Shown piece by piece: positions 23,552-30,715 of a stretch of DNA of 59,426 bases. Where the stretch lies: positions 1 through 59,426 of the forward strand of contig JAZGGI010000015.1 of NCBI GenBank assembly GCA_036480375.1, given 5' to 3'. The first letter of the stretch is position 1. Each line of letters begins with the position of its first letter. The position numbers were made by a program, and so were the translations under genes. The notes under the pieces were generated by a model that was not told the origin of the DNA, made no database searches, and saw only the letters and a list, made by a program, of their open reading frames with translations. The stretch is from Candidatus Zixiibacteriota bacterium. Lineage in GTDB: Bacteria; Zixibacteria; MSB-5A5; GN15; JAAZOE01.

Positions 23552-23828
23552 GTGTTTTCATCCTCTTTTTGGCATAGAGAACGAATTCATATTGAAGTCC
23601 GAACACGATCACTCTTTGCCTACTTCATCCGACGACAACTCAGTGGAGCTTTCACGACGCCGGAAAAACAGGCAACGATGCAGCAGGCCGGAGATTATCA
23701 AGTGGCTCTCATGTTTCTCTTGGACTTGGACTGGAAGATAGCCAGTGATTGGCAACAAGTACGCGATCGCGAAAAGACCCTGAAGGAGTTGAAGAAGGCG
23801 GTTGGTGCCGAGGTTTTCGGGAATTTTA
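23552..23828 (+). pseudogene. 5' part of an unknown gene interrupted by the IS1-like element
   Basis: This frame reads RTRSLFAYFIRRQLSGAF, then a helical part (TLKELKKAVGAEVFGNF) and runs into the transposon end in the target duplication GAATTTTA. Removing the element and one duplication copy joins it in frame to 26389-26591. The combined frame has about 160 codons. The first codon is a GTG without a ribosome site, so the true start may be lost. I do not recognise the family. Confidence 0.45.
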
Positions 23829-23844
23829 GGTACTGTCCTAATTT
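23829..23844 (+). repeat. Left terminal inverted repeat of the IS1-like element
   Basis: GGTACTGTCCTAATTT, directly after the 8-bp target duplication GAATTTTA at 23821-23828. The exact reverse complement is at 26365-26380. Confidence 0.92.
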
Positions 23845-23888
23845 CAGGCTGATTAAGTATTTACCGATAAGTTGATAAAGGAGATAAA

Positions 23889-24146
23889 ATGACATTTGAT
23901 ACAAAAATACGAGCTAAGGCTGAAGGATTAAAAAAATTACTCCAGCAGGAATATCCTGAACTCTTAAATAAAAAGGCGAGCATTAAAAATGGCTCGCCTG
24001 AATCAGGTTATTGGTATTTGGGCTATTATGTAGCCCTATGTGATGTTCTTCGTCTGATGGATGAAGAACTTGAAAACGCTACAAGCGGGTGCAATTCGGT
24101 ACTGGACAGGGATAGTTTGTTCCGTCCGGCGTGTCCGGGTGATTAG
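23889..24146 (+). CDS. Cargo gene 1, 85-residue protein of unknown function
   Basis: The start has a strong AAAGGAG ribosome site (AAAGGAGATAAAATG). The sequence is a charged helical region (KIRAKAEGLKKLLQQEYPEL) followed by SGYWYLGYYVALCDVLRLMD and EELENA, which looks like an all-helical small protein. The C-terminal ~20 codons overlap the end of the convergent GIY-YIG-like gene by 68 bases and look less constrained. No family recognised. It lies just inside the left inverted repeat. Confidence 0.6.
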   Translation: MTFDTKIRAKAEGLKKLLQQEYPELLNKKASIKNGSPESGYWYLGYYVALCDVLRLMDEELENATSGCNSVLDRDSLFRPACPGD

Positions 24147-24432
24147 GATTATTCTTCGGTCTAAATGCGTGCCATATTTTGCATTCATACTCATAGCATT
24201 CTTTAGATGTCCCAAGAAACCCATATTTATAAGTCCTATATTTCTTGAGAGGTAAATATTGGTGCAACCGATTATTAAGGTTGTCATCTGAACGCCCGAT
24301 TCTTTGAACATGAAATGTCCCATCCGTTCCAACATAACCCAGGGCGTATGCCCCAATTCCCACTTGGTCAACATGGGTATCTATCCCTTCGCTGGTTAAT
24401 AGATACGGCCCATGCAATCTTGTCGAAGGCAT
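24079..24432 (-). CDS. Cargo gene 2, GIY-YIG-like protein
   Basis: This 117-residue protein matches the outline of the GIY-YIG fold. GAYALGYVGTDG and VQRIGRSDDNLNNRLHQY stand for the GIY/YIG strands and the following Arg-bearing helix. YRTYKYGFLGTSKECYEYEC follows, with a glutamate where the catalytic Glu usually sits. The C-terminus (HPDTPDGTNYPCPVPNC) has two Cys that may bind metal. GIY-YIG proteins are often nucleases, but the exact GIY and YIG triplets are altered, so activity is uncertain. I start at ATG 24432 because AAAGGAGG lies 6 bases upstream; the frame is open further upstream without such a site. It is read against the transposase. Confidence 0.6.
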   Translation of the reverse strand: MPSTRLHGPYLLTSEGIDTHVDQVGIGAYALGYVGTDGTFHVQRIGRSDDNLNNRLHQYLPLKKYRTYKYGFLGTSKECYEYECKIWHAFRPKNNPNHPDTPDGTNYPCPVPNCTRL

Positions 24433-24486
24433 GATTTGCCTCCTTTCTGGGGATATACTCCCCCCTCTGCATTTTATCAAAAACGC

Positions 24487-24515
24487 TTGACAAAACTATT
24501 AAAAATGTTTACTAT
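24487..24515 (+). promoter_or_regulatory. Near-perfect promoter for a short RNA
   Basis: TTGACA (24487-24492), 17-base spacer, TACTAT (24510-24515). The predicted start is near 24522. No coding frame with a ribosome site follows before the terminator at 24603-24636. Confidence 0.7.
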
Positions 24516-24521
24516 GGATAA

Positions 24522-24636
24522 AGCGTTACCGGCCAATCCAGTCTGTCCCAGTCGGCATTGTGTTTTTACTGGCGACTGGATCAGCCAGTAGGTAAATTAT
24601 CCAAACCCAGAGTCCTCACAAGATTCTGGGTTTTTT
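24522..24636 (+). ncRNA. Candidate transposon-encoded small RNA, about 115 nt
   Basis: A consensus promoter and an intrinsic terminator bound this stretch, and it folds into one long interrupted hairpin. The pairs are TTACC/GGTAA (24526-24530 with 24591-24595), GGC/GCC (24531-24533 with 24584-24586), ATCCAGTC/GACTGGAT (24536-24543 with 24574-24581) and CCAGT/ACTGG (24548-24552 with 24568-24572). The loop is 15 bases. A separate terminator hairpin follows. There is no convincing reading frame. Possible roles are a regulator of transposition or of a host gene, or a guide-like RNA for cargo. I cannot match it to a known family. Confidence 0.6.
24603..24636 (+). terminator. Rho-independent terminator of the small RNA
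   Basis: AAACCCAGA (24603-24611) pairs with TCTGGGTTT (24625-24633) around a 13-base loop, ending in six T. Confidence 0.8.
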
Positions 24637-24764
24637 CACTCATCAAGATAATAGTTCAAAAACCGAAATGCAACATAAAAATAAAAAATAATGAGCCCCC
24701 CTCTTTCAGATTTTTCAGATTCTTTCGTTTTCTTCGTTTTTTCTCACTTTTTTCTCATTTCCCC

Positions 24765-24793
24765 TTGACAGAGAATAAAAATATCCGTATATT
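24765..24793 (+). promoter_or_regulatory. Consensus promoter for cargo gene 3
   Basis: TTGACA (24765-24770), 17-base spacer, TATATT (24788-24793), about 30 bases before the GGAGG ribosome site of the gene at 24830. It may also serve the transposase leader. Confidence 0.7.
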
Positions 24794-24829
24794 TGGATGA
24801 GCGAAAAGAATTTGTTTTGGAGGTAAAAA

Positions 24830-25225
24830 ATGTTACTGTCTATGCAGGCCCTGATTGAAACTGAACAAAAGCTAAGAGCAATTATTGACCACGCTCAGCA
24901 AGAGCTTGAAGCTGTTCAGTTATTAATTAAAGGTCATGAATTACGTAGTGAGGAAGCTGATAGTGGCTCTAAGAAACAAACACTACATCAATCAATGCTA
25001 TATCAGATTGAACGTTTTCAAGGTAAATGGTTTACGGGTCGGCAAATTACAGACCGCCTTATTTCGGCGGGAATAAGAAAAGAAACTGAAAGAGCCAGAG
25101 TTCAATCAATTCTCGCAAACTACCTGAAAAAATTAAGTGATAAGGGCAAATTGGAAAGAAAAAATGTAAAACCTGAGAGTCAGCGAGGCAGATTCGAATA
25201 TAGGCAAATAACTAAAGAGGATTGA
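24830..25225 (+). CDS. Cargo gene 3, coiled-coil plus winged-helix-like protein
   Basis: The first ~45 residues of this 131-residue protein form an amphipathic helix (ETEQKLRAIIDHAQQELEAV). The second half reads like a winged helix: LYQIERFQGKWFTGRQITDR, LISAGIRKETERARVQSILA, then NYLKKLSDKGKLERKNV and a C-terminal GRFEYRQI strand pair. That layout suggests a DNA-binding protein, perhaps a transposition regulator. The ATG is 6 bases after GGAGG. It is the second promoter-driven unit inside the element and lies about 80 bases upstream of the leader peptide. Confidence 0.6.
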   Translation: MLLSMQALIETEQKLRAIIDHAQQELEAVQLLIKGHELRSEEADSGSKKQTLHQSMLYQIERFQGKWFTGRQITDRLISAGIRKETERARVQSILANYLKKLSDKGKLERKNVKPESQRGRFEYRQITKED

Positions 25226-25234
25226 CATTAAAAA

Positions 25235-25258
25235 AGCTGAGCGTGGTAGCGCTCAGCT
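25235..25258 (+). terminator. Hairpin after cargo gene 3
   Basis: Perfect 9-bp stem AGCTGAGCG/CGCTCAGCT around TGGTAG. No T-run follows, so it may be a processing or pausing hairpin and not a full terminator. Confidence 0.45.
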
Positions 25259-25307
25259 AAAACCCGGAAAACGACAAGACGAAAAAAATTTATTATGAGG
25301 CTTTCCT

Positions 25308-25376
25308 ATGTCAAGATACAAATTATTAAACATGCTGTCAAGCACTAATTGCTTGGCGCGTCCGCCACCACCATAA
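25308..25376 (+). CDS. Candidate 22-residue leader peptide ending in PPPP
   Basis: ATG follows GAGG (25297-25300) at a 7-base distance. The frame reads MSRYKLLNMLSSTNC then LARPPPP and stops. Four consecutive prolines before a stop codon are a classic condition for ribosome stalling that EF-P relieves. The peptide ends about 15 bases before a set of hairpins that leads to the transposase start. I infer a regulatory leader; the sequence shows only the frame, the ribosome site and the proline run. Confidence 0.45.
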   Translation: MSRYKLLNMLSSTNCLARPPPP

Positions 25377-25390
25377 TCCCTAAAAATACA

Positions 25391-25525
25391 GGCTCAGGGC
25401 GGTAATAATGCCGCTCTGGGCCGCCTTTAAACACCCGCCCGATGCGCGAACATCGGGACGGGGTAGCATTAACTGCACGGACAGGCCGTACAGCCAAGCA
25501 TATAAAATATCGGCTTTCCCGTGCA
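25391..25525 (+). promoter_or_regulatory. Three-hairpin leader of the transposase gene
   Basis: Hairpin 1 pairs 25391-25402 with 25411-25422 (12 bp with two G-U). Hairpin 2 pairs 25434-25444 with 25451-25462 (11 bp, one bulged A). Hairpin 3 pairs TGCACGG (25474-25480) with CCGTGCA (25519-25525) and closes just before the GAGGAAAG ribosome site. Stable, consecutive structures like these between a peptide frame and a transposase suggest control of transposase translation. Confidence 0.5.
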
Positions 25526-25544
25526 AAAAGTCAAGAGGAAAGCC

Positions 25545-26360
25545 ATGAACCAACTTAAATGCGAGAAACAGAAAATGGTCTTGAGCCTTTTAGTCGAAGG
25601 AAATAGTATTCGCGGAATCGAAAGAATTACTGGTTCCCATCGTGATACAATTACCCGTTTAATGATTTCGGTTAGTGAGGCTTGCAGATATGATATGTAT
25701 AACAGATTCCGCAATCTTAAATGTAATTATATTGAGGTTGATGAAATTTGGACTTACGTCGCTAAAAAGCAAAAGCGGTTAACAGAGGCCGAATTGAATA
25801 ATGGTTGTCAAAAGGGCGATCAATACGTTTTTGTGGCTTTAGACCGTGAAACTAAACTTGTCCCCGCATTTTATATTGGAAAGCGAAACAATCTAAGTAC
25901 TTATAGTTTTATTGCCGAATTGAGCAAGCGGATTAATGGCCGCTTCCAATTGACAACTGATATGTACCGACCTTATATCGATGCTGTAATTTGGACTTTT
26001 GGCCGCTCAGTCAATTACGCCATGCTTAGAAAGCTCTATCATGGTGATGGCTCTGGCCGCGAGGGTTATAGCCCATCCCGGTTACGGGGAACTGATACAA
26101 GCATAATAGTAGGCGATCCCAAACCTGAAAAGATTTGTACGTCATATATTGAGAGGCAAAACTTGACGATACGTACACAACTCAGGCGATTTACACGGTT
26201 AACCAATGCTTTTTCTAAGACGGTCGAGAATCTAAAGGCGGCCATTGCCCTGCATTTTTGGCATTATAATTTTATGAGAATCCATAGTACCCTGAAAATG
26301 ACTCCGGCTATGGCGGCGGGAATTAAAAATAATATTGCAATTTGGGATGAAGTTTTGTAA
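25545..26360 (+). CDS. IS1-family-like DDE transposase
   Basis: This 271-residue single-frame transposase has an N-terminal helix-turn-helix (residues ~5-50; LLVEGNSIRGIERITG, HRDTITRLM), then a DDE-type core: YIEVDEIWTYV (first Asp), LTTDMYRPYIDAV (second Asp) and SYIERQNLTIRTQLRR (Glu). The tail NFMRIHSTLKMTPAMAAGI is typical for this group. The classical IS1 frameshift between two frames is absent. It cuts and joins the ends at 23829 and 26380. I chose ATG 25545 because GAGGAAAG precedes it; a GTG at 25521 has the third leader hairpin over it and no ribosome site. It ends only 20 bases from the right element end. Confidence 0.88.
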   Translation: MNQLKCEKQKMVLSLLVEGNSIRGIERITGSHRDTITRLMISVSEACRYDMYNRFRNLKCNYIEVDEIWTYVAKKQKRLTEAELNNGCQKGDQYVFVALDRETKLVPAFYIGKRNNLSTYSFIAELSKRINGRFQLTTDMYRPYIDAVIWTFGRSVNYAMLRKLYHGDGSGREGYSPSRLRGTDTSIIVGDPKPEKICTSYIERQNLTIRTQLRRFTRLTNAFSKTVENLKAAIALHFWHYNFMRIHSTLKMTPAMAAGIKNNIAIWDEVL

Positions 26361-26364
26361 GTTC

Positions 26365-26380
26365 AAATTAGGACAGTACC
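26365..26380 (-). repeat. Right terminal inverted repeat of the IS1-like element
   Basis: Exact reverse complement of 23829-23844, directly followed by the second copy of the target duplication GAATTTTA (26381-26388). Confidence 0.92.
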
Positions 26381-26388
26381 GAATTTTA

Positions 26389-26591
26389 TTGGTAAGGCCT
26401 CAGACGACAACACCATCGACGCTGCAGTGATTCGAGAATTGGAGACTGCGTTACAGGCAGAAGCACCGCCATCACTAACCTACTTGGAATCGATTTATAC
26501 GGAAGCCGGGGTAGTCCTGCCTGGGTTATCCTGCGCTGTAAGAGGAATAGTGCTATGTAATTATAGGGATTCTTTCAAAATATCGAGCTAA
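26389..26591 (+). pseudogene. 3' part of the gene interrupted by the IS1-like element
   Basis: This is in frame with 23552-23828 once the element and one duplication copy are removed. It reads DDNTIDAAVIRELETALQAE, then APPSLTYLESIYTEAGVVLP and ends FKISS. There is no start codon with a ribosome site here, so it is a severed tail. No family recognised. Confidence 0.45.
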
Positions 26592-29017: not shown

Positions 29018-30514
29018 CTACCGATTTGGTCTGATGCCAACCCAGCGAGTATTTCCCTCGGTATCGTAGATTATAAACGAAATTGATTTTTTTCTATCTG
29101 TCAATTTATCCACCGCTTCGCGATAATCGCGAATATCGTTTATCTCAAATCTGTCGATCTCTACTATAACTACGCCGGGAACGATGTTTCTGTTGTAGGC
29201 CGGTGAACCAACGGCTACATTGGTCACGATTACCCCTCCCGACGGAGGACAATCAACGCCGAGTTGATTGGCAACTTGGGGCGAACAATCAGCAACTTCC
29301 ATGCCCAGCCAGTAATCTTCGGAATAAGGCTGCTGGCGCGGTGAATTAACCGTTTGAAGGGCAAGGTTTCTATTGCCGATCAAAGCTTTGAGATTTAATG
29401 GTTCGCCGTTTCGCACTAATTCCAGGTCAACCGTATCGCCGATGGGAGTACTGGCGACCTGGAAACTGAAATCATCGGAATTTTTAATCGAATGTCCGTC
29501 GAATTTTACCAGAATATCCCGTGGTTTCAAACCCGCTCTTGATGCCGGCGAGTTGCGTAGAACCTGCTCAAACATCACCGCCTGTCCTTCAATATTCAGT
29601 TCTTCCGCCATTTCATAAGGGACGTCAATGGCGCTGACACCCAGCCATCCGCGCGAGACGTTTCCGTGAGCGATTAAATCAGGAACGATGGCTCGTGCGA
29701 AATCGATAGGGATCGCAAATCCGATACCGACCGAAACCCCCGTTGGGGACGAGATCGCGGCGTTAACTCCAATAGCTTCTCCCTTAAGATTTAGAAGCGG
29801 CCCGCCCGAGTTTCCGGGATTAATTGTGGCGTCGGTTTGAATATAGTCCTGGTAAATGACATTGCCGTCGGCAAAGCGAAAGTTGCGCCGCCCGGTCGCC
29901 GATACGACTCCGGCGGTGACGGTCCTGTCAAGCCCTGTCTGAGGGAAGGGATTACCAATAGCGACAACCCATTCTCCGATTTGCAAATCTTTAGAATGTC
30001 CGAATGGAATTACCGGCAAGTCGCTGCGAGGCTTAATTTTCAAAACGGCTAAATCGGTTTCGGGATCGTTTCCGATCACTTCAGCCTCATAAACGGCATT
30101 GTCCGAAGTGGTTACCTGAACTCGGTCGGAGCCGGAGATGACATGATTATTTGTCAGGATATAGCCATCTTCCCGGAAGATAAATCCGGTTCCAAAAGAT
30201 TTTTGCGTCCGGGGATGTTGCAGTCCAAAAAATCGGAAATATTCATCGATTCCATATCCGCGACGTTCGGATTCCGCCGTAATATTCACTACCGCATCGC
30301 GAGCCTTTGAGACAACTTCGATAAAAGGAGTCGAAAAATCAACCGGACGGTCGGAAGTTGAATCCTGAGTGTTAAAATCGGTTCTGTTCTCGGCCACCGG
30401 TTTTGCCGGCAGATCAATCATTGAAGCGATGATGATGCCGACGAAAATATACAATATGGCAAACAGCACTGAAGAAACAAAGCGCCTTCTGGCGCCAAAA
30501 ATCCCCGCTCTCAA
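29018..30514 (-). CDS. degQ: HtrA/DegQ-type periplasmic serine protease
   Basis: This 498-residue protein has an N-terminal membrane anchor (about 12-33), a trypsin-like domain and two PDZ domains. The catalytic triad reads His124 (NNHVISG), Asp154 (PETDLAVLKI) and Ser236 (PGNSGGPLL). PDZ 1 covers about 275-380 (GWLGVSAIDVPYEMAEEL, SPASRAGLKPRDILVKFDG) and PDZ 2 about 395-498. HtrA proteases degrade or chaperone misfolded envelope proteins. The start is TTG (30512-30514) with TTGGAGG nearby, and a good promoter lies upstream. The neighbouring sigma factor gene suggests coordinated envelope stress and housekeeping expression; that link is inference. The symbol is chosen within the degP/degQ group without firm evidence between them. 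Confidence 0.9.
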   Translation of the reverse strand: MRAGIFGARRRFVSSVLFAILYIFVGIIIASMIDLPAKPVAENRTDFNTQDSTSDRPVDFSTPFIEVVSKARDAVVNITAESERRGYGIDEYFRFFGLQHPRTQKSFGTGFIFREDGYILTNNHVISGSDRVQVTTSDNAVYEAEVIGNDPETDLAVLKIKPRSDLPVIPFGHSKDLQIGEWVVAIGNPFPQTGLDRTVTAGVVSATGRRNFRFADGNVIYQDYIQTDATINPGNSGGPLLNLKGEAIGVNAAISSPTGVSVGIGFAIPIDFARAIVPDLIAHGNVSRGWLGVSAIDVPYEMAEELNIEGQAVMFEQVLRNSPASRAGLKPRDILVKFDGHSIKNSDDFSFQVASTPIGDTVDLELVRNGEPLNLKALIGNRNLALQTVNSPRQQPYSEDYWLGMEVADCSPQVANQLGVDCPPSGGVIVTNVAVGSPAYNRNIVPGVVIVEIDRFEINDIRDYREAVDKLTDRKKSISFIIYDTEGNTRWVGIRPNR

Positions 30515-30544
30515 TTTGTTTCCTCCAAAAATGGATAGCTTCTT

Positions 30545-30572
30545 ATAATAAGACTATTTTTCTCTCTGTCAA
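30545..30572 (-). promoter_or_regulatory. Promoter of degQ (minus strand)
   Basis: On the minus strand TTGACA (30572-30567), 16-base spacer, TATTAT (30550-30545). It lies 31 bases from the TTG start. Confidence 0.65.
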
Positions 30573-30715
30573 GTTTAAAATTAATTTTCATCACACTCAA
30601 TATTCTTTTTACGGAATTTGACACAACCCGGTTCCGTCCGATTTAAAATATTAATACGTCGGCAAAAGTTCCCAAATTATACGATTTTTCACAAATTTAG
30701 TTGGATTTTTTTGGT

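Follow-up and report, generated by a model that had tools for sequence, protein, structure and literature searches.

The stretch of DNA analysed here, referred to as the window, covers 59,426 nucleotides of a contig from a Candidatus Zixiibacteriota bacterium and contains an insertion element of 2,552 bp at positions 23829–26380. The element starts with the left inverted repeat GGTACTGTCCTAATTT (23829–23844, forward strand) and ends with its perfect reverse complement (26365–26380, reverse strand); the two repeats are complementary at 16 of 16 positions, and at 17 of 18 when extended to 18 bp. The 8-bp target duplication GAATTTTA lies directly outside the ends, at 23821–23828 and in an exactly matching copy at 26381–26388. 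When 60 random anchors elsewhere in the window were given an equal search space, the best inverted pair accompanied by an exact 8-bp duplication matched at 12 of 18 positions. The perfect ends and the duplication that had been described in the original prediction, which was made from the sequence of the window alone, were thus borne out. Besides the transposase gene, 1.7 kb of passenger DNA with three cargo genes is located between the ends, instead of the approximately 1.4 kb proposed earlier. The element is present as a single full copy in the source genome (3.59 Mb, 50 contigs), and a scan of the element against Rfam matched no RNA family. Transporter insertion sequences (tIS) are insertion sequence copies with passenger genes (PMC3129680, PMC9330008), and the element of the window is a single-ORF (open reading frame) tIS of the IS1 family.

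The transposase is encoded by one uninterrupted ORF of 271 codons (25545–26360, forward strand). The protein scored 36.5 bits against the Pfam family DDE_Tnp_IS1 (PF03400; cut-off, 24.1 bits), and the catalytic residues D66, D139, and E203 were invariant among 10 homologues. The earlier assignment of an IS1-type DDE transposase in a single frame was therefore correct. The score against the NCBIfam IS1 equivalog model was 68.3 bits, below the cut-off of 100, which indicates that the transposase belongs to an outlying subgroup and not to classical IS1. Single-ORF members of the IS1 family are known, and the element resembles the single-ORF, ISMhu11-like group in its DDE_Tnp_IS1 domain, its ends starting with GG (GGTACTGTCC), its 8-bp duplication, which falls within the 8–9 bp of the family, and its lone transposase. 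In contrast to classical IS1, it has no InsA/InsB′ pair joined by a frameshift between two frames, its transposase ORF has no InsA-type N-terminal zinc finger, and its length is 2.55 kb, whereas known members are about 0.8 kb long. The same pattern of ends and duplication was found in 36 other delimited elements, and the records of the relatives on plasmids annotate the gene as an "IS1 family transposase".

The cargo of the window element consists of two modules. The first is a convergent pair of genes with overlapping 3′ ends, namely an ORF of 85 residues (23889–24146, forward strand) and a GIY-YIG-like ORF (24079–24432, reverse strand; 117 amino acids from the ATG at 24432). The same convergent order was found without this transposase in genomes G054 and G123 and in the viral contig L159, which indicates that the pair is conserved independently of the transposase; the linkage is kept in four independent contexts. 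The pair in G123 sits between dnaK- and dnaJ-like genes, and G054 carries all three cargo genes of the window together, with no transposase and no recognizable ends. Each of the three ORFs has homologues away from any transposase and thus qualifies as a tIS passenger. The three genes had been proposed to travel as a unit with this transposase, and the occurrence of the pair in three other contigs, and of the trio in G054, without the transposase does not agree with this proposal.

In regards to the GIY-YIG-like protein, the GxYxLG, YVGR, R, E, and N positions are conserved in most of six homologues, and the best AlphaFold2 (AF2) model shows a β-β-α-β-α topology (predicted local distance difference test (pLDDT), 83.5). 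Pfam GIY-YIG was matched below the cut-off, and by a homologue only (E = 0.059); plasmids and phages searched with the protein gave no match, and a PDB sequence search returned nothing. Since Foldseek returned no significant match and the quality of four of the five models was low, the GIY-YIG fold is to be taken as a suggestion. The motif residues and the predicted topology speak for the label given in the original prediction, but neither Pfam nor Foldseek confirms it. The pair would most likely be a nuclease-and-partner conflict module; as a putative toxin-antitoxin module, it shows the convergent linkage in the four contexts.

The second module is a gene for a coiled-coil winged-helix protein of 131 amino acids (24830–25225, forward strand), the architecture of which recurs in 20 other loci. 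The AF2 model consists of a long helix (residues 5–44) followed by a winged helix (pLDDT, 81.6), and the best Foldseek matches were the bacterial transcription factor 6abt and the PadR family (probability, 0.99–1.00; E, 0.03–0.07). These predictions support the winged-helix label assigned earlier. A promoter-like site, TTGACA-17-TATATT, precedes the gene (24765–24793, forward strand) and agrees with the consensus at 11 of 12 positions, as a match only. The suggestion that the extra content has its own promoters is favoured by this site but not by the total, since nine promoter-like sites were counted, against 6.0 ± 2.7 in shuffled sequences. Downstream of the gene are a hairpin with a 9-pair stem (25235–25258), which follows the winged-helix gene in most homologous loci, a conserved box, GCGCGTCCGCCACCA (25356–25370, forward strand), and a second hairpin (25391–25422), placed by sequence reading and comparison with a sister module on contig C47 of the source genome, where the tRNA of that module would follow. 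The consensus of the box, GCKCGHCCGCCACCA, occurs in the same place in C47, G036, G060, and G013. As a genome-wide marker of the module, this GCCACCA box was rejected, because most matches lie in coding DNA and were not enriched over the reversed control outside these loci.

A tRNA gene was detected with ARAGORN at most 520 nt downstream of the winged-helix gene and on the same strand in 12 of 21 loci under strict settings, a count that is somewhat biased because L069, L078, and L115 were recognized by having the tRNA. At the 90% threshold the number rose to 16 of 21, with L081 being weak, and the background was zero among 268 further ORFs of comparable length taken from these loci. The cleanest test is provided by four loci (in G060, G038, G013, and G095) that only the protein profile had revealed and that had no part in its construction; two of them had a tRNA under strict settings and all four under relaxed ones. 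The Rfam tRNA model scored 42–68 bits on these tRNAs where tested. Loci with a tRNA behind the winged-helix gene, with or without a transposase, include L032, L037, L040, L041, L131, L069, L078, L115, and L099. The gene and the tRNA occur together without a transposase in C47, G054 (tRNA at L153:2790–2863), G060 (L177:2185–2270), and G038 (L179:2267–2353), and with a tRNA-like sequence in G036; in L037 they are inverted together relative to the transposase. Because of the joint inversion and the occurrence without a transposase, the idea that the tRNA is a part of the transposase leader was rejected.

Many of these tRNAs are odd. Short-armed bodies were found to bear GCU (Ser) anticodons and a Leu-type body to bear UGC, and anticodons of four bases were also called. 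A tRNA-like form that lacks a normal D-arm and has the loop GGGTTTGCACC in common lies downstream of the winged-helix genes in L040 (7701–7769 of its reverse complement), L041, L154 (G036), and L176 (G095); two of the RNAs with this loop score weakly against the transfer-messenger RNA model. Two distinct elements (L088:5776–5859 and L085:5781–5866, the latter being the same element as L082) contain a long-armed Leu-type tRNA 135–142 nt before the transposase gene; its anticodon, UUA, would pair with the stop codon UAA.

Downstream of the winged-helix gene, the window copy retains both hairpins and the GCCACCA box and has no tRNA. In the second copy of the module in the source genome (G000:C47, about 29,985–30,690; L048:7985–8688, L192), the winged-helix gene is accompanied by the same box and by a tRNA. 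The AATATCGGCTTTCC leader found before the transposase of the window comes after this second copy as well, with no transposase match behind it. From this comparison, we read the window copy as a putative tRNA-less derivative of a winged-helix/tRNA module. We found no publication on such a pair or on tRNAs next to transposases, in a search to which most subscription papers were closed.

The transposase profile matched in 18 of the 132 genomes of the phylum and in 64 loci of viral contigs, and the window protein as a single query also matched several alphaproteobacterial plasmids. By means of inverted ends and duplications, we delimited 37 elements, including that of the window: 14 in Zixiibacteriota genomes, 3 on plasmids (Mesorhizobium, Hoeflea, and Acidiphilium), and 20 in viral contigs. 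Plasmid p_1 of Mesorhizobium loti 582 has its element at CP050295.1:470343–473712, and the element of Hoeflea IMCC20628 is located at NZ_CP011481.1:34698–38921. The duplication was exactly 8 bp in 36 of the 37, among them L085 with its first end base mutated, and 9 bp in L130. The elements measure 1,271–4,286 bp (median, 3,143), and the smallest amount of non-transposase DNA is 510 bp, so that every one carries extra DNA. The search could have caught bare elements or elements of up to about 11 kb. A small passenger region is thus present in all delimitable elements of this widespread clade, and its content varies. The shortest one (L133:7342–8612, in G106; 1,271 bp) has perfect ends, an 8-bp duplication, only a fragment of the transposase, and one cargo protein of 307 residues, and is a non-autonomous carrier. 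In L104 (viral contig IMGVR_UViG_3300014158_000003), an element that encodes a Panacea protein together with an SDH protease sits within a large phage-type tRNA array, and L105 is close to another such array. These placements indicate that such transposons ride on phages. The source genome also contains a decayed relative, a truncated transposase of the sister clade (G000:C12:6291–6827; 48% identity), for which a right end, GGTAGTGGGTCAGTTT, is present at C12:7578.

To describe the cargo, 148 cargo ORFs and an equal number of flanking ORFs were compared with family profiles. Pfam identified IrrE/M78 (10), SocA-Panacea (4), SDH protease (3), NYN (2), and HigB (2), and PemK, HicB, ParE, HipA, and SecB once each; NCBIfam placed seven of the cargo ORFs among the HigA-family antitoxins. 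The PADLOC family PD-Lambda-2_B matched seven cargo proteins (best E, 1e-49) and none of the 148 flanking ORFs, and PADLOC families overall numbered 105 in the cargo and 14, scattered, in the flanks. In L034, L036, and L105, a HigB-like gene is combined with a HigA-peptidase gene and a third gene of 160–180 residues without a family assignment. L039 encodes a SecB-type chaperone, which matches PD-T4-9_C, with HicB-like neighbours. A recognizable toxin-antitoxin, defence, or restriction gene was found in at least 18 of the 37 elements, counting M78, Panacea, PemK/HipA, HicB/SecB, ParE, and methyltransferase. These results indicate that conflict genes are enriched in the cargo of the clade.

We therefore consider it probable that the element acts as a compact courier for conflict modules, the passengers of which are kept because their loss is costly or because they protect against phages. 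The transposase would cut and join the 16-bp ends and insert the whole unit into 8-bp targets, as members of its family do, and the passengers would persist by penalizing loss of the element or by shielding the host from phages. For the cargo of the window, we infer a functional class as follows: a GIY-YIG-like nuclease with its 85-residue partner, and a winged-helix regulator that may have lost its usual tRNA gene. Several points weigh against this explanation. Recognizable conflict genes occur in only half of the elements, and the remainder carry unknown or unrelated cargo. The Pfam tallies were made per set, and hits were assigned to single elements partly through clusters and sequence reading. 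The cargo proteins of the window itself match no defence or toxin-antitoxin profile, neither of its modules has a match in any defence library, and the GIY-YIG assignment is a weak one, drawn from motif residues and a predicted topology. The copies from viral contigs could also skew the sample toward conflict genes; the Zixiibacteriota genomes taken alone show the same pattern. A bolder version, which we put forward only tentatively, is that the clade is dedicated to shuttling interchangeable conflict modules among bacteria, plasmids, and phages, and that the coiled-coil winged-helix gene and the unusual tRNA downstream of it (with an anticodon often mismatched to the body type, or with an arm missing) form a new RNA-linked addiction or immunity module, from which the window copy has lost the tRNA.

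Cargo is exchanged between relatives. The closest transposase (85% identity, in G002) is accompanied by a proteasome-like protein, a small excisionase-type helix-turn-helix protein, and a 289-residue protein, and the next one (65%, in G025) by a winged-helix gene together with a SocA/Panacea protein and its small partner. When cargo labels were mapped on a maximum-likelihood tree of 66 transposases and compared with shuffled labels, the numbers of changes were 9 against 8.7 for M78, 7 against 8.0 for the winged-helix protein, and 10 against 11.4 for a small KGG-like protein. Since the labels change as often as shuffled ones, transposase and cargo are inherited nearly independently. The idea that the three cargo genes travel as one set with this transposase is not supported in that form, given the entirely different cargo in G002 and the random placement of cargo on the tree. 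The small KGG-like protein is basic, contains GRLGGLKGGKARAKK repeats, and is annotated as "histone H1" in one record; it is present in 16 of the 37 elements, usually near the left end whatever the other cargo, as in L034, L035, L036, L039, L071, L095, L134, and others.

The random distribution on the tree would also be expected if the passengers were accidental hitch-hikers, with tolerant ends taking up any nearby DNA and toxin-antitoxin genes being common among them as small, abundant, and mobile genes. The elements without a recognizable conflict gene, about half of the total, agree with this explanation as well. However, no cargo-free element was among those delimited, the flanking genes, taken as a sample of the surrounding DNA, are nearly free of these families, and the cargo often occupies fixed slots, such as that of the KGG-like protein. 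We regard accidental uptake as rather unlikely. It is also improbable, in our judgement, that the winged-helix protein is a transposition accessory (a repressor or target selector) that leaves the GIY-YIG-like pair as the sole cargo. Its predicted DNA-binding fold would suit such a role, as would the finding that at least 12 elements from several sub-clades have its gene, often directly before the transposase. Most elements lack the gene, however, its orientation in L037 is opposite to that of the transposase, and it occurs without a transposase, with a tRNA or tRNA-like sequence, in C47, G054, G036, G060, and G038. A composite of two nested insertions, for which 12 bp inside the element (24093–24104) that match the right end plus duplication could be invoked, is very hard to credit and the match was rejected as chance: about 0.4 such matches are expected by chance according to our estimate, the window holds a single pair of full ends with one matching duplication, no internal duplication pair was found, and the 36 relatives share the same unit structure.

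The insertion site was analysed by excising the element together with one copy of the duplication, which restored an open frame across the junction. Homologues of this frame in G083 (C209) and G130 (C30) lie in open frames of 610–666 codons and align on both sides of the junction with no insert. G083 and G130 represent different genera and not strains, and the empty target sites looked for in related genomes are thus seen as homologous uninterrupted genes rather than as the exact ancestral site. The interrupted gene (23552–23827 and 26381–26591) is a shortened remnant. Either the element landed in a gene remnant or it contributed to making the remnant. The recent arrival of the element that had been proposed is consistent with the data from the single genome of the species.

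The leader of the transposase gene contains a hairpin (25434–25461, forward strand), in which 4 of 11 pairs are changed on both sides among three sequences, and a long-range stem that adjoins the ribosome-binding region (25475–25524, forward strand), with 97% of cells paired across the window element, G002, and G025. Over the two hairpins of the leader in the window sub-clade, three sequences show compensatory changes on both sides of five pairs, compared with 0–1 in slid controls. For many transposase genes of the sister clade, a sigma-70-like promoter reaches to 2–14 nt ahead of the start codon, which implies a leaderless mRNA; over the whole set, this arrangement was found at 23 of 66 transposase genes and at 7 of 1,300 control ATGs. 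A GGTCA box resembling the element ends was found at 21 of the 66 transposase genes and 28 of the 1,300 controls. The conserved hairpins suggest that the structured leader may damp translation of the transposase, and structured leaders and leaderless promoters look like possible means of keeping the transposase scarce.

The element shares with known tIS the passenger genes that lie inside its ends and are unrelated to transposition; it differs from them in that the cargo of its clade appears obligatory and is enriched in conflict genes. The closest precedent in the literature comes from Tn3-family transposons: of 190 such transposons, 39 contain toxin-antitoxin pairs, which lie beside the resolution site (Lima-Mendez et al. 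2020, PMC7157771). Exchangeable toxin-antitoxin modules are a part of the transposon in both cases, and the "take me or die" model applies to both, whereas the present clade consists of one-gene transposons without a resolvase, has cargo in all delimited copies, and also carries PD-lambda-2-like and chaperone systems. PD-lambda-2 comprises HigB, a HigA fused to a peptidase, and a third gene needed for defence (PMC9519451). The gene set of L034, L036, and L105 resembles this system, and the SecB-type chaperone and HicB-like genes of L039 resemble PD-T4-9/CmdTAC (PMC9519451); the window element carries neither, and the set of HigB, HigA-peptidase, and third gene is absent from it. We found no publication that describes passengers or conflict cargo in IS1-family elements, although ISfinder and most subscription papers were not searchable. 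The present results extend the idea of toxin-antitoxin genes within transposons from Tn3 to one of the simplest transposons known, and because the element has a lone transposase and short ends, a small construct would be enough to test "take me or die". The clade offers a possible route by which PD-lambda-2-like and chaperone-type defence systems move among chromosomes, plasmids, and phages, and the pairing of a winged-helix gene with a tRNA could be a new kind of RNA-linked module.

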